Part shown: piece by piece, positions 1 to 10,291 of the stretch
How positions within the stretch are numbered: the first letter of the stretch is position 1
Layout of the letters: every line of letters begins with the position of its first letter
Origin: an uncultured Mycoplasmataceae bacterium
GTDB taxonomy: Bacteria; Bacillota_I; Bacilli_A; Mycoplasmatales; Hepatoplasmataceae
Direction: 5' to 3'
Assembly (NCBI GenBank): GCA_947313745.1
Contig: CAMZNG010000008.1
Span: 1-64,000, forward strand
DNA length: 64,000 nucleotides
Notes under the pieces: generated by a model
The model's database searches: none
What the model was told of the DNA's origin: nothing
What the model saw: the letters and a program-made list of their open reading frames with translations, nothing else
Position numbers and translations under genes: made by a program

Positions 1-222
1 AACCTCTTTTTAAATGAGAAAGATTGATTAAAAGAAAATACAAAACTAGAAAATACAAAACAAAAATCATGAGCCAACAATGCAAATTTAAAAAATGGAA
101 AACTAACTACCATTCCTTATTTACCTATGTTTAATATGAAAGATAATTTTCCTAAGATAATTAAAGCTATGGAAAGAATGAAATATATTTTAATAGAAAA
201 TGAAATATATGTTATCAACTAA
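1..222 (+). CDS. C-terminal fragment of an unidentified protein
   Basis: An open frame runs from the first base of the window to a TAA at 220-222, giving 74 codons with two UGA tryptophans. The gene begins outside the window. The fragment is polar and Lys/Asn-rich at first, then has a more ordered end with the stretch LTTIPYLPMFNMKDNFPKII and a final ILIENEIYVIN. I do not recognise the family. It points toward the candidate tracrRNA. It does not look like a Cas9 C-terminus, but that cannot be excluded from so short a piece. Confidence 0.5.
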
Positions 223-341
223 GGATAATAGACAATTAACATATAAATCATAAACAAGGAAGACAATTAATCACTGTTGTAGGATAACTTACAATTATTT
301 AAGATCATAAGTAAAAAATTATTTTACAAAGAAATTTATGC

Positions 342-347
342 TATAAT
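342..347 (+). promoter_or_regulatory. Extended -10 promoter of the candidate tracrRNA
   Basis: TATAAT is preceded by TG one base upstream (TGCTATAAT), a classical extended -10 element. It predicts a start near 353-355 on the plus strand. No good -35 is visible, as expected for extended -10 promoters. There is no start codon and no reading frame downstream before the terminator, so the product is probably an untranslated RNA. Confidence 0.5.
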
Positions 348-374
348 AAAAATATCTTGGTTTTGAACTAAGGA

Positions 375-451
375 CGCTCACTATTATCAACCAACCATTG
401 AAAAAGTATAAAGTGTTTAAATATTGTTCGCTCACAATTATCAACCAATCA
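375..451 (+). repeat. Two direct copies of a CRISPR-repeat-related block, 54 bp apart
   Basis: Copy 1 begins at 375 and copy 2 at 429. They share CGCTCAC and ATTATCAACCAA, separated by one variable base, then a C/T variation (CCAACCA against CCAATCA). The 15-base core ATTATCAACCAACCA (383-397) recurs exactly at 2894-2908, just upstream of cas1. The 54-base spacing is too short for a normal 36-base repeat plus 30-base spacer, which argues against an ordinary array. Confidence 0.6.
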
Positions 452-477
452 AGATTTGGCTATACGCCGGAGGGTAC

Positions 478-513
478 GCAGGTAACCCTATTAAATCCTC
501 CTGCATTTTTTTT
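478..513 (+). terminator. Rho-independent terminator of the candidate tracrRNA
   Basis: GCAGG (478-482) pairs with CCTGC (500-504), followed by A and eight T. A competing pairing, GGAGG (469-473) with CCTCC (497-501), and a nested GGGTAC/GTAACCC stem are also possible, so the 3' end is strongly structured. Confidence 0.6.
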
Positions 514-520
514 ATGCAAA

Positions 521-550
521 TTTTGAAAAATAAAGAGGCCATAAGCCTCT
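521..550 (-). terminator. Terminator of the cas1-cas2-csn2 unit
   Basis: On the minus strand, just past the csn2 stop codon, AGAGGC and GCCTCT form a hairpin with a five-base loop (534-550), followed by TTATTTTT. It ends the cas transcript before it runs into the convergent RNA unit. Confidence 0.6.
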
Positions 551-560
551 ATTCCTTTCA

Positions 561-1616
561 TTAACCAAGATATTTTTCTAAAATATATTTTCCTATTTTA
601 GAAAGATTATTCTTGTATTCCACTTTATTTATCTTTAGGGATTCTTTATTACTTAATAAATATGAATATGCTGCTATATACATAGCTTCGCTTAAATATG
701 ATAAATCAATAATTCCATCTTCAGATGAAATGCATTGTTCAATTATATTTTTCAATACATTAGAAAATACAATTGAATGTTTTTTAATATCATCATCTTC
801 CACAAGATATTGTGAATTAACTTCATACTTGTCAAAGTCTTTTGCCTCTCCATCATAATCTTTCATCAAAACATATTTTTTAATTATTGTTTCATTGAAA
901 ATTAATTTATATAAAACATCATTGTGAAGATAATTGAAAGATTTCATTAAATTGAAGTCTTGTCTTAAGAAGTTAGTTTTTCTAGTTAATAATATTATGA
1001 TATTATTCTTTTTTAATTTATCTATATATTTAAATATGTTGTTTCCATGATCGTTTGAAAACTCATCATAATCATTTATAATGATTATTTTATTTTTTAT
1101 TTCATCATTACCTAAAACCATATCTACAAATATTGGTTTAAGATTTCATTGGTTATATATTTTTGAAGGTATTTCATTTTCATTAGGATCTATTATCAAT
1201 AACTCAAAAAGATTATCTATTACATTACCAGGAGTTTTAATTTTATTTACCAAAGATAATGAGTAATCCTTAGACATTATTTTTGATGAAACATCCTTTG
1301 AAAAATCATTAATCCCATCACTAAATAGGGAATTAATTTCAATGTTGTTATTATCAAAATAGTCTATTGAATAACTAATAATTTTCTTTCTTAAATTTGA
1401 ACTTTTCGATAGTGTAAATTCCTTTTTCATATCAATGTTAAAGTCAATGAATAGAAGGTCATTTATTTGTTGGTTATTATCAATATAATAATTTCCTGAC
1501 TTAATAGAGCTTGACAATTCAGAAACAAATTCTTGTTGTTCTAAGTAATCTTTACATAAGATTACCGCCATATTTTTATGAAACCTAATCTTCTTTTTTA
1601 ATACTTCTATAATCAT
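561..1616 (-). CDS. csn2: CRISPR adaptation protein Csn2, long form
   Basis: Csn2 forms a ring-shaped DNA-end-binding tetramer that takes part in spacer acquisition in type II-A systems. The frame has 351 residues when the UGA at residue 157 is read as Trp, matching the longer (about 350-residue) Csn2 class rather than the 220-residue class. The N-terminal half has a hydrophobic strand followed by a degenerate nucleotide-binding loop (residues 15-35). IIIINDYDEF near residue 175 resembles the beta strand with acidic residues that takes the Walker B place. It starts four bases after the cas2 stop and is last in the cas operon, the usual type II-A position. Identity rests mainly on position and length, since Csn2 is poorly conserved. 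Confidence 0.75.
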
Positions 1617-1620
1617 AATA

Positions 1621-1929
1621 CTAAATTAAAATTAAGTTTCCTCTCTCGGTAATCTTTTCTGTTATGCTTTTTTCACCTTTGAGTAATTTCATATCTATAT
1701 ATTGTTTTTCTGTAATTGCTATGGCTCTAATATCACCTTCACTTGGAAGAATTCTTTCTACATATATAAGAATCCTATTTAGTGAATCATGATTAATACA
1801 TTGTTTTACATATACTGATTCTTGCATCATAATAAAACCTCTATTCATTAGTTGTTTTCTAAATAATGCTGCTTCTTTCATATCTTTTTTTGTTGTGGTT
1901 GGTAAATCATATAATACAATTAATCTCAT
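1621..1929 (-). CDS. cas2: CRISPR-associated endonuclease Cas2
   Basis: Cas2 forms the dimer at the centre of the Cas1-Cas2 integrase. The protein begins MRLIVLYDLPTTTKKD, with the ferredoxin-like first strand and the conserved aspartate of the Cas2 family, and has RKQLMNRGFIMMQESVYVK in the place of the family's helix-strand. The 102-residue length is typical. The start chosen at 1929 gives the standard MRLIVLYDLP beginning; an upstream in-frame ATG would add 11 residues overlapping cas1 and lacks family support. It lies ten bases after cas1 and four before csn2. Confidence 0.9.
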   Translation of the reverse strand: MRLIVLYDLPTTTKKDMKEAALFRKQLMNRGFIMMQESVYVKQCINHDSLNRILIYVERILPSEGDIRAIAITEKQYIDMKLLKGEKSITEKITERGNLILI

Positions 1930-1939
1930 AATCCTAAAG

Positions 1940-2884
1940 TTAGAATTCCGGGAATTCACCATCAGAAATTTGATTCCTTATATTATCTAAATATATAGTT
2001 GGTAGTGATAGTTGATCTACTTCACCACTCAAAAAAGATATATAACTTTTTACCATAACATCAATAGCATTTTTAATTCTAAAAGTTTTTCCATCAATAT
2101 TAACCTTCATATCTAAGATTCTTAAAATCTTTAATTTTAATGGAATTGTAAGTTCATCATCAAGTTCCATTGATAAGTGATTGGCAAGCCAATCAACGAT
2201 TGGTCTTAGCGGTTCAATAAAATCATAAGACAAATTAAAGTAATTTGTTTGTGACTTATGAAACACACCAATAGCCGGATGTAATCCATATTTAACTATG
2301 CAATTTGATATTTTGCTAGCAATTATTTTATAACCAAAATTTATAAATGAGTTTATTCCATCATCAGCAAACCTTAAAAATGACGACCCATAAATTTCTC
2401 TAAAGAATATTCTAGCTGCCATTGCTTCTCTGTTTGTTTTATCTCCTTGAGTTACGTCGCTAGTATACTTAGATAGTTTAATGGTTGTTTCCTCTTTTGC
2501 ACCAACATCTTCTAAAACAATTCGTTGGTTTTCAATTTTCTTTTGTATAAGTTGTTTATGCAATATGTTTTTTAATCTTGAATTTTGTTCTAATTGTAAA
2601 TTAAAATTTTGCAATGGTTTATGATGAGATGAAATTGGTAGCATCATTGTTGATGGAACATGTTTTGCATCAGAGATTACCAATGTTATATTCCTTTTTG
2701 ATAGTTCATTTAATGATGCAATAGTAATTAGTGATTTAATATTTTCAATAAGGATTAGATCTATTTCTTCTAGGGAAATTTTAATCGTTTCAGCATCCTT
2801 ATTGTTATAGTCTTTAAGTAGTAAAAATCCATTACCTATAGAAAATTTTTTCTCTGAGGTAATCATTATTGTTTTTCATGACAT
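1940..2884 (-). CDS. cas1: CRISPR-associated integrase Cas1 (type II-A)
   Basis: Cas1 is the metal-dependent integrase that inserts new spacers. The start is placed at 2884 rather than 2866 because it yields MSWKTIMITSEKKFSI, the classic type II Cas1 N-terminus, with Trp3 coded by UGA. The protein is then 314 residues. Active-site candidates are visible: Glu in REAMAARIFF (about 153), His in GVFHKS (about 209) and Asp/Glu in LSYDFIEPLRP (about 221). It is first in a cas1-cas2-csn2 operon. cas9, which normally precedes cas1 in type II-A, is absent: upstream comes only a 385-base non-coding stretch and then an unrelated plus-strand gene. No Shine-Dalgarno sequence precedes the start. Confidence 0.93.
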
Positions 2885-2893
2885 AATATTTTA

Positions 2894-2908
2894 ATTATCA
2901 ACCAACCA
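2894..2908 (-). repeat. Repeat-core copy in the cas1 leader
   Basis: Read in the cas1 direction this is TGGTTGGTTGATAAT, nine bases upstream of the cas1 start codon. It is exactly complementary to bases 383-397 as read in the candidate tracrRNA, and to 14 of 15 bases of the second block (437-451). It may be a stranded half repeat, a leader element or a regulatory target. Confidence 0.55.
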
Positions 2909-2911
2909 AAA

Positions 2912-2917
2912 ATTATA
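2912..2917 (-). promoter_or_regulatory. Candidate -10 box of the cas1 operon
   Basis: TATAAT on the minus strand, 27 bases before the chosen cas1 start. The predicted start of transcription is about 2905, inside or beside the repeat-core copy, so the cas1 mRNA would begin with that element. No convincing -35 box is seen. Confidence 0.4.
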
Positions 2918-3269
2918 TTTTTACTCATCAATAATAATATCTCATTTGCTTTAATAAAGTATCTTATTAGCATAATTTATTGTATAAAAAATATTTATAT
3001 TTGACACAATAGAAGAAAGAGAAGTGAATTCTATCTTATTATCAAGTTCATATTTTAATATCCTATTAGGAACCATATTCTCTGAAGATAACATAATTAT
3101 TACAACATTAAAATTACTAATAATCCACACCTATTTATTAGATGATTATTTTAACATTTCATATAATTATGTTTTAACACCTTTTATTAGAATGTTTATA
3201 TTTCATTTGGGATTAGCGATATTAAAATATTTTAAATTTAATAAATAAAATTGTATAATTTAATTAATA

Positions 3270-4088
3270 ATGAAAACAGTTAGTAAGAAAATAATACTTT
3301 TAACAATATTTTTTATTATTGGGTGCGTATTTTTAATAGGTTATAAAACTTCATTTGAAAATAATATAAATGATAAGTTTATTAAACAAAATTCAACATT
3401 GGTTAATAATGAAGAATGAGCTCAACCCAAGATAGATGATGATAATGTAATAATAGACGAAGCAAGCATAACTTCAGAAGGGTTTGATTTTGCTATTTCA
3501 ACATCCTATCTCCCAAATGATTATTTTAATGCTAATAAGGAAAATTTACCATATAGAATAGAAGTTCAATCAAGTGAAGTATCAATTTGAAATTCAAGAG
3601 TTTATAGTGAAGCACTAACAAACAATAACTTTAATGTCACAGGATTAAGTCCATCAACAACTTATCCAGAAATATCATTTGTTTTAATTGATGTACTTAC
3701 AGGAGACCCAATTGGAGATTCAGTTCCAAGTAGCAAAAATGAAATAAAAACAAAGAAATCACTTTTACTAAAGATTTCTGAAATATCATTTATACTATTC
3801 TTTGCATTATCTATAATTATTGGTATTGCACTAGTATTTAAAATAATAGATAAAAGAAGAGGCGGAGACAATTATGATTATGGAGATAATTATAGTGGAA
3901 GTGGCGGTGGCTACTATGGAGGCTTTTTAAATTATGATGATTATAGCAAACCTGCAAAACAAAAGAAACCTAAACGTCAGAAGAAAGGTAAAGGCAGCAG
4001 TGGCTATGGTGGTGGCTACGGTGGCTACGGTGGAAGTGGCGGATATTATGGTGACAATGGTGGTTACAGAAACGGCGGATGAAATTAA
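3270..4088 (+). CDS. Membrane protein with FN3-like domain and Gly/Tyr-rich cytoplasmic tail
   Basis: 272 residues. An N-terminal hydrophobic segment (residues 6-25) is followed by an outside domain (about 60-165) whose pattern, including LSPSTTYPEISFVLID, resembles fibronectin type III. A second hydrophobic helix (about 175-195) is followed by a positively charged stop (KIIDKRR). The last 75 residues are a low-complexity tail rich in Gly, Tyr, Ser and Lys. The expected topology puts this tail in the cytoplasm. Similar Asn/Tyr-rich tails occur at the other termini of the proteins at 60533 and 63224. TATAAT (3254-3259) ends ten bases before the ATG and no ribosome site is seen, so the mRNA may be leaderless. 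The function is unknown. Confidence 0.75.
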
Positions 4089-6831: not shown

Positions 6832-6859
6832 ACCATTGGTCTATCAACAAAAGAGATTT

Positions 6860-9800
6860 ATGAAAGAAAAAGAAAGAATACAAAAAGGAATAGTTACATT
6901 TGAAAAAATTGACAAAGAAACTTATGAGTGTTTCATTTATGATGGACTTATTGTAAGTTATCTACATCATTGAAATGGAAAATGAACTAATTATGTACCT
7001 CAAGATAGAGGTAATTTTCCTAGGTTTTCAGATGAAGAAAGAGAAGAAATTATAAAAATAATTAATGATTTTGAAGCGACTCTAAACAATAGAAAAAATA
7101 TAGATAAACAAAAAGGTATTAAGGCAAGAATTAAAATACAGATAATATCTGATGACGTCTATCTTTTTGATCCAAAAAATGCGAAAATAAATAACAAAGA
7201 TTTAGAGTTATCATGAATTCAAACAAGAAGATTACCAAACGGAGAATTTTGATTTTTCTTATTAAATCTTACTACCAACATACACTATAAAGATTTATAT
7301 ATTATAAATTCTGGATTACCATATGATATAAAAATTGATGATATTTTTATTGAAGTAAAACCACCTAAAGAAGGAGAAAAAGAATCTTTACAAGAGATCC
7401 AAAATCCCAAGACAATAGAAGTTAAACTAGATAATATCCCCATCAAAAAACCTACACCTAAGAAAACAGTTGAAACAAAAGTAGTTTCAAAACCAACTAC
7501 TAAAAAACCTACATCTAAAAAAACAACCGAAACAAAAGTAGTTGCAAAACCAGTTATAAAAAAACCTACACCTAAGAAAACAGTTGAAACGAAAGTAGTT
7601 GCAAAACCAACTACTAAAAAACCAACACCTAAGAAAACAACCGAAACAAAAGTAGTTTCAAAACCAACTACTAAAAAACCTACATCTAAAAAAACAACCG
7701 AAACAAAAGTAGTCGCAAAACCAATTATCAAAAAACCAACACCTAAGAAAACAACTGAAACAAAAGTAGTTTCAAAACCAACTACTAAAAAACCTACATC
7801 TAAAAAAACAACCGAAACAAAAGTAGTCGCAAAACCAACTACTAAAAAACCAACACCTAAGAAAACAACTGAAACAAAAGTAGTCGCAAAACCAACTACT
7901 AAAAAACCTAATGTAAAGAAAAAATCTAAAACAACCTCAAAGAAAAGAATCTCATTTAAAGAATTGACAGCTGATAGAGAAACTAAAAAACCTCAAGTAA
8001 TAAAACCAAAATCAGCAAAAGATAGATTTTCATTAGCTGGAAGTGGAAACGATGATTGACTTAATGATAGTAATAAAGTACCATCAAAATCATCAAACGA
8101 TAGATTTGGAAAATCAGGCCACACATCTTCCGATCTACCTGATAGCGTTGAACTAATAAAAAAATCATCAAGTGATAGATTTGGAAAATCAGGTCACGCA
8201 TCAGAAGAAACATCAAGCAAAGAAATTTCAGGAAAATCTTCAACCGATAGATTCAGCAAATCAGGCCACACATCTTCCGATCTACCTGATAGCGTTGAGC
8301 TAATAAAAAAATCATCAAGTGATAGATTTGGAAAATCAGGCCACACATCAGAAGAATCATCAGACAAAGGAATTGCAGGAAAATCTTCAGCCGATAGATT
8401 CAGCAAATCAGGACATGACAATGATGAATCATCAGACAAAAATAATCTAGAAGAAAAAACTTCTGAATCAAGATTCAACAAATCAGGTCACGGATCAGAA
8501 GAATCATCAAGCAAAAGAATTGCAGGAAAATCTTCAGCAGACAGATTCAGCAAATCGGGACATGACGAAGAATCATCAAGCAAAGGAATTGCAGGAAAAT
8601 CTTCAGCAGACAGATTCAGCAAATCAGGACATGACAATGATGAATCATCAGACAAAAATAATCTAGAAGAAAAAACTTCCGAATCAAGATTCAGCAAATC
8701 AGGCCACGCATCAGAAGAAACATCAAGCAAAGGAATTGCAGGAAAATCTTCAGCAGATAGATTCAGCAAATCAGGTCATGATGATAAAGAAATAAGTGAA
8801 TTTTCTGGAGAAAAAACTTCTGAATCAAGATTCAGTAAATCAGGTCACGGATCAGAAGAATCATCAAACAAAAGAATTGCTGGAAAATCTTCAGCAGATA
8901 GATTCAGTAAATCAGGACATGACGAAGAATCATCAAGCAAAGGAATCACAGGAAAATCTTCAGCAGATAGATTCAGCAAATCAGGTCATGATGATAAAGA
9001 AATAAGTGAATTTTCTGGAGAAAAAACTTCTGAATCAAGATTCAGCAAATCAGGTCACGGATCAGAAGAATCATCAAACAAAGGAATTGCAGGAAAATCT
9101 TCAGCAGATAGATTCAGTAAATCAGGACATGACGAAGAATCATCAAGCAAAGGAATCACAGGAAAATCTTCAGCAGATAGATTCAGCAAATCAGGTCACG
9201 GATCAGGCGAATTATCAAATGAACTTAAAAATAAAACATTAGAAAGCAGACTTATTACAAAACCAGAAACAGAATCATACAAGAAAAAATCATTAGAAGA
9301 TAGATTACTTTCAAAACCAGAGGAAAAAACATTTGAAGGAAAAAACTTAGAAAGCAGACTTATTGCAAAACCAGAAACAGAAACATATAAGAAAAAATCA
9401 TTAAAAGATAGATTGATTTCAAAACCAGAAACAGAATCATACAAGAAAAAATCATTGGAAGATAGAATAGTTGGAAAATACAAAGATAAAAAAGAAACAT
9501 CAGAACCTACTGTAAATACATTAAATAACACTAGTAATTTACCACAAAGTGTTATTCCAGTTGAGATAAAAAATATTCCTGAAGAACATGAAAAGGGTAA
9601 TTCATTAGATGAGTTTATATATAAAAAATATGATGTAACAGAAGAAGTTAAGATTGGGAAAGAAAGAAGCTTACAATCAAATACAATTGAAACAACTTTA
9701 AACATACAAAACAAATTAGAAAATACAGATAATAATCAAAGTGATTTAAGTATTGGTACTGATAGTTTTGTTAAAGAGAAAAATTCATTAGGAAAAAAAC

Positions 9801-10291
9801 AAAAATTAACTAAACAAGACCTTAAAAAAGAAGATTTAGTTTTCGATGAAAAAAAAGAAAAAATAATAGACAACAAAATTGACACCTTAGAAAAAATTAA
9901 TTATTGAATTAAAGAGGTAAAAGAATATCTTAATGATAGATTAGATGATGAAAATAACAAACCATTGGAAAACATAAATAATAGAGAGAAAAATTTAACA
10001 AAAGAAAAAAGCAATAATAATTCTAAGTCAAGCCTTTCTGGAAATAATGATTATATTCTTTTAGAAAGAAAATTATCAAAACATTTTAAAGAACTTTTAT
10101 TAAAAAATAATGCAAAAAATAAAAAAATAACTAACCTCTTAAAAAAAGAAGTTGAAACATTAAAAAATAAAATTGAACGTGAAAATAATAAATCCTTTGA
10201 GATGATCAAAAGTAATTCTCGTGAAGAAAAAGAAAAAGCAATGAAAAAAATAGAAGACTTTATACAAAAAGAATGAATCCCAGAAAAATAA
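6860..10291 (+). CDS. Large tandem-repeat cytosolic protein (DRFxKSGH repeats), function unknown
   Basis: 1143 residues. Residues 1-195 form a folded-looking domain with four UGA tryptophans. Next come eight to nine 19-residue repeats of the type KKPTPKKTTETKVV(A/S)KPTT (about 197-350), strongly basic. Then about 16 copies of (D/E)(S)RF(S/G/N)KSGH separated by Ser/Glu-rich linkers (about 410-780), and four units resembling KSLEDRLISKPETESYKK (about 790-875). A charged coiled-coil-like end with a UGA Trp closes it. There is no signal peptide or membrane helix. The last (S)LEDR/LESR repeats echo the DRF repeats. It shares the DRFxKxG motif with the upstream gene. The nucleotide repeats are nearly identical, so copy number probably varies among strains. 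I do not recognise the family. Confidence 0.75.
7445..7910 (+). repeat. 57-bp tandem repeats in the 6860 gene
   Basis: The unit beginning at CCTACACCTAAG recurs at 7451, 7508, 7565, 7622, 7679, 7736, 7793 and 7850, always 57 bases apart, with a last partial unit at 7907. Two alternating variants (TPKK and TSKK) are visible. Confidence 0.9.
8080..9200 (+). repeat. About 16 tandem RFxKSGH-coding repeats
   Basis: In-frame repeats of roughly 66-78 bases, each coding for a DRF/SRF-x-KSGH core with a variable Ser/Glu linker. Higher-order duplication is visible: the block around 8760-8970 is nearly repeated at 8970-9180, and the TSSDLPDSVELIKKSS linker occurs twice (8116 and 8269). Confidence 0.85.

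Follow-up and report, generated by a model that had tools for sequence, protein, structure and literature searches.

A predicted tracrRNA with tandem anti-repeats beside the cas1, cas2, and csn2 genes in the Hepatoplasma/Tyloplasma family

We analyzed a 64,000-nt stretch of DNA (referred to here as the window; contig CAMZNG010000008.1 of assembly GCA_947313745.1), position 1 of which is the first base of the contig. The genome (695 kb; 24 contigs) belongs to the same genus as "Candidatus Tyloplasma litorale," within a family (i.e., Hepatoplasma/Tyloplasma) of isopod gut symbionts. At its left end, the window carries a predicted tracrRNA (354 to 513) and the genes csn2, cas2, and cas1 (Table 1). 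These genes lie on the opposite strand (561 to 2884), and the operon thus converges with the RNA, as the initial annotation had described. The csn2 label rests on similarity to genes of the relatives, which were assigned to Csn2 by HHpred (PMC10928387); the Csn2 model PF09711 matched neither this genome nor the control genomes. The array and most of cas9 are absent from the assembly, in which a contig break falls at that place. Only the N-terminal ~150 residues of Cas9 are encoded, on another contig (C21), where the gene is cut off by the contig end. The relatives have full-length cas9 genes, and the Cas9 of the family is compact (~1,100 to 1,200 residues). An open frame at 1 to 222 was ruled out as the cas9 C terminus and is without a relative in the family. 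When the inferred repeat was searched against the window's own genome, it matched the two anti-repeats described below and no array copy, indicating that the array is unassembled; pairing was therefore examined in relatives. An RNase III gene is present in 10 of 10 family genomes. Farther into the window, an open frame of 1,151 aa (6836 to 10291) contains many tandem protein repeats of the KSSADRFSKSGH and KKPTPKKT types.

Table 1. Coordinates of the tracrRNA parts and neighboring features in the window
Feature	Position	Strand	Basis or remark
Extended -10 element TGCTATAAT, predicted long-tracrRNA promoter	339-347	+	Sequence
5' leader, able to pair with the AR2 3' end	354-370	+	MFE fold; leader-AR2 duplex versus shuffles
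Anti-repeat 1 (AR1), upstream extra copy	371-397	+	54-nt offset duplicate of AR2; homologues pair with family array repeats
Anti-repeat 2 (AR2), probable working copy, ends CAAGAT, abuts nexus	423-455	+	
Nexus-type hairpin GGC-TATAC-GCC	458-468 (stem, 458-460/466-468)	+	Sequence; fold
Possible H-type pseudoknot	472-504	+	Alignment; variable-pair test
T8 run, probable transcription end	506-513	+	Sequence; unlisted by simple terminator scan
csn2-like gene, 351 aa	561-1616	-	E, 4e-31 to same-place gene of Ca. T. litorale
cas2	1621-1962	-	PF09827; TIGR01573
cas1, type II	1940-2884	-	TIGR03639 (E, 3.7e-73)
Repeat-like element TTTTGGTTGGTTGATAATT, 19 nt, complementary to AR1 and AR2	2893-2911	-	Just upstream of cas1

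Two related blocks in the predicted tracrRNA had been described as 19 to 20 bases long and 54 bases apart. The blocks are real (372 to 396 and 426 to 450; start to start, 54), but they are longer than that, reaching ~27 and ~33 nt. The best self-similarity score of 354 to 513 was 19, at offset 54, exceeding all of 400 dinucleotide shuffles (mean, 7.7; standard deviation, 1.2; maximum, 13); hence, the duplication is not due to chance. A repeat finder returned a 50-nt pair with 70% identity (348 to 397 and 402 to 451). The proposed extended -10 element and GGC/GCC hairpin were both found; a TATAAT-like element occupies the equivalent place in 5 of 5 homologues, and AGC/GCT stands at the nexus place in Ca. 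T. litorale. The possible pseudoknot combines a GGGT/ACCC stem (472 to 475 and 485 to 488) with a loop, GCAGG (478 to 482), that pairs with CCTGC (500 to 504). As for the terminator, which had been called strong, a G+C-rich stem precedes the eight T's, but the scan did not list that site, its two terminator-like matches both falling at 534 to 550. A shorter form from an internal promoter had also been suggested. The letters TATAAA do occur at 407 to 412, but promoter-like sites around them were about as frequent as expected by chance (4 versus 2.6), and the near-absent linker in the four Hepatoplasma copies leaves hardly any space for a promoter; the short form is thus not supported. Rfam returned no match for positions 1 to 3300 at E values up to 1. 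The beginning of the tracrRNA region and the csn2 3' end share a 15-nt perfect inverted repeat (348 to 362 and 563 to 577), which may be due to chance in AT-rich DNA.

Ca. T. litorale, Ca. H. crinochetorum Av, H. scabrum, and H. vulgare, all with complete genomes from which array repeats were also read, each carry a homologous tracrRNA whose two full anti-repeats share one orientation. Both anti-repeats in these four genomes lie on the same strand and outside the array. The spacing between them is 50 nt in Ca. T. litorale, 38 nt in Av, 39 nt in H. scabrum, and 37 nt in H. vulgare (with other scan settings, 37 nt for Av and H. scabrum and 38 nt for H. vulgare), compared with 54 nt in the window. 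H. crinochetorum Ps has a sixth tandem tracrRNA, apparently intact, at the syntenic place (L068:5148-5528). Its genome yielded no cas1 or cas9 matches, and an array remnant of three repeats lies near G008:C1:53,473-53,624. A more distant family member (G006) apparently has a single anti-repeat.

Other observations were made at the relatives' loci. Ca. T. litorale has one array (L036:5846 to L018:6428; 16.5 kb) of ~250 repeats, a count estimated from coordinates, with a 66-nt period in a 616-kb genome. Between its csn2 and its tracrRNA lies a gene for a 781-aa ATPase-like protein (L018:10831-13176; P-loop GVGKTT by eye), which is absent from that place in the window. Past the array end of H. 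vulgare, two repeat-like copies, both degenerate, lie 45 nt from each other (L039:946-1026).

The initial annotation had named an array repeat lacking complementarity to the two blocks as a refutation; the repeats of all four relatives proved complementary to both anti-repeats. In each genome with an array (four in all), the duplexes with the own repeat had energies of -32.3 to -43.7 kcal/mol (AR1) and -43.0 to -46.9 kcal/mol (AR2), and none of 500 shuffles was as strong for any AR1 or AR2 duplex. H. crinochetorum Ps was scored with the Av repeat. Pairing between clades was much weaker than within clades, and cross-pairing among the close relatives Av, H. scabrum, and Ps was about equal to own pairing; AR1 thus follows the repeat of its clade. 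The features of a type II-A tracrRNA are otherwise present, with cas9 in the genome, cas1, cas2, and csn2 beside the RNA, and a nexus hairpin and probable terminator 3' of the anti-repeat, while complementarity to the own repeat is seen in the four relatives with arrays. Two anti-repeats stand in one predicted unit, they match the own repeat in four relatives, and the layout recurs in six genomes. We consider it highly probable that the RNA is a tracrRNA carrying tandem anti-repeats, in agreement with the identity first proposed. The second block had been taken as the working copy, and this assignment is strengthened because in 6 of 6 sequences AR2 adjoins the nexus and has CAAGAU as its 3' end. 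Placed beside the nexus and the 3' pseudoknot, AR2 would pair with the crRNA repeat and load Cas9 as usual.

AR1 might be a nonfunctional duplication or an array relic inside the tracrRNA transcript. Degradation of its 3' end is seen in three genomes (the H. crinochetorum/scabrum clade) and in the window's genome, and the same end in H. vulgare and Ca. T. litorale resembles the repeat antisense (CCAAAAC) rather than AR2 (CAAGAT), as a relic would. Yet AR1 has been retained in six genomes of two genera and tracks the repeat of its own clade, and the inter-anti-repeat spacing (37 to 54 nt) is unlike the 66-nt period of the array. Moreover, AR1 and AR2 show about the same degree of conservation across the close relatives H. 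crinochetorum Av, Ps, and H. scabrum. This argues against a dead relic, short of proving function, as recurrent copying of the array or of AR2 would leave a similar picture. We regard a relic as rather improbable. Since both copies still match the repeat in at least four related species, the second copy is probably functional; that the tandem form has stayed in register with a changing repeat across the family suggests selection on that copy.

The regions flanking the anti-repeats were compared among the six tracrRNAs. An H-type pseudoknot (GGGUAC-NCAGG-UAACCC...CCUGN') is possible in 6 of 6 3' domains; the pairs of Ps were read by hand, as the aligner had shifted its end. At the variable position, every one of the six sequences has a Watson-Crick pair, and four types of pair occur, a result equaled by 4 of 720 permutations. 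As the pattern was noticed post hoc and the sequences are related, this covariation is support rather than proof. The 3' domain of the more distant G006 differs and can likewise be drawn as a pseudoknot. With regard to the 5' leader, 19 to 98 of 1,000 shuffled leaders, depending on the species, formed a helix with AR2 as good as the natural one (six species), and leaders paired about equally with the AR2 of other species. In Ca. T. litorale, the leader helix is not the favored fold (pairing probability, 0.07). In the predicted Hepatoplasma folds, AR1 pairs with the center of AR2 and the leader with its 3' end; the AR1-AR2 pairing may simply follow from the near-palindromic nature of the repeat.

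The best explanation of the whole, which we hold to be about evenly balanced between right and wrong, is that AR2 loads Cas9 while AR1 captures repeats, an RNase III cut then trimming the AR2-bound leader. A stronger version, in which AR1 licenses the tracrRNA, is put forward tentatively and may well prove wrong. When pre-crRNA is absent, the 5' leader would fold onto AR2 and hold the precursor closed, a closure that the near-palindromic center of AR1 may assist in Hepatoplasma. AR1 would sense pre-crRNA by pairing with its repeat, RNase III would cleave the resulting duplex and release the inhibitory leader, and AR2 would then be available to a repeat, arming Cas9. What we infer comprises a single transcript, cleavage within AR1, closure by the fold, and licensing. 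Against licensing, the crRNA repeat binds AR2 strongly enough that it could displace the leader unaided. AR1 may instead be a plain extra processing arm that pairs with neighboring pre-crRNA repeats and brings more RNase III cutting, with no switch. Full-length pairing of AR1 with the repeat and the presence of RNase III agree with this simpler arrangement, which also has no need of the leader fold, the weaker part of the evidence. It leaves the recurrence of an AR2-pairing leader in 6 of 6 sequences unexplained, and we judge it unlikely. The two-anti-repeat form allows control of tracrRNA maturation by pre-crRNA to be tested simply in vitro.

Two further readings would turn the RNA against the cas genes. 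Leader and AR1 might mimic the repeat in cis, making a natural single guide of the kind formed by S. pyogenes tracr-L (PMC11417352), with the Cas9-bound long form repressing cas genes. The predicted pairing of the leader with the AR2 3' end and of AR1 with the AR2 center does resemble a cis repeat-anti-repeat duplex. The comparison with tracr-L had been made at the outset, and what survives of it is that the leader can pair with AR2; roughly 0 to 3 nt separate the helix from the predicted 5' end, too few for a guide, and the second promoter is unsupported, as promoter-like sites were at chance level. A single guide is thus very unlikely. The other reading applies to the window's genome, where the tracrRNA might pair with the repeat-like element just upstream of cas1 and so act in antisense on the mRNA of cas1-cas2-csn2. 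This element, TTTTGGTTGGTTGATAATT, is the sole exact copy in the assembly and ends 8 nt ahead of the cas1 start codon; among 7,962 32-nt windows, its site was the best partner of AR2 (-23.5 kcal/mol) and the second best of AR1. However, it could itself be a repeat relic, and it is missing upstream of cas1 in 5 of 5 relatives inspected and thus cannot account for conservation of the tandem. We find antisense action scarcely credible.

tracrRNAs have been described with one anti-repeat, and the initial annotation had called a tandem layout unusual. We scanned 96 loci around cas9 or cas1, taken from the order and class. A usable array was present in 74 of them, and at least one match outside the array was found in 56, not all of these matches being true anti-repeats. 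Six loci were flagged as tandem, namely, the four of the Hepatoplasmataceae family and two others (L120 and L143); the latter, with 66-nt spacing and near-perfect repeats, were read as array pieces. Thus, among the 74 type II loci with a detectable array, there was no true tandem outside the family, within which the layout is conserved, and the expectation of rarity held. Because the scan used ungapped matching and a single threshold (14), which split anti-repeats can escape, the survey samples such loci rather than counting them exhaustively. Elsewhere in the order, the 3' motif had weak matches, which by eye resemble coding sequence.

Cas9, Cas1, Cas2, and the arrays of these same systems have been reported previously (PMC3942034 and PMC10928387), and Csn2 in the family was reported by PMC10928387, correcting earlier reports of its absence (PMC3942034 and PMC6882279). 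The word "tracr" does not occur in the main texts of PMC3942034 and PMC10928387, and the tandem is accordingly not described there. The main text of the Mollicutes survey (PMC6882279) describes a single anti-repeat region in Ca. H. crinochetorum Av and classes its system as II-C. A tracrRNA with a tandem, duplicated, or second anti-repeat was not found in literature consisting of main texts and few subscription papers, where the searches brought up a paper on Cas12g, and within that limited coverage the form is apparently undescribed. It offers a naturally different guide-RNA scaffold (i.e., tandem anti-repeats and a 3' pseudoknot) for a compact Cas9.

S. pyogenes tracr-L, which matches its own promoter target over 11 nt (PMC11417352), shares with the RNAs described here an extended 5' part that lies upstream of the working anti-repeat and can pair in cis. 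Unlike in tracr-L, the 5' part here holds a second anti-repeat in the same orientation, the predicted start leaves no guide space, and a second promoter lacks support. A type II-A tracrRNA has an anti-repeat with a terminal G-U pair, a nexus hairpin, and an end in a T run, and it lies beside the cas genes (PMC6882279). The family agrees with this general plan in its repeat-complementary anti-repeat, terminal G-U pair, nexus, T-run end, and cas-adjacent position, and it departs from the plan in having two full tandem anti-repeats and a possible 3' pseudoknot.
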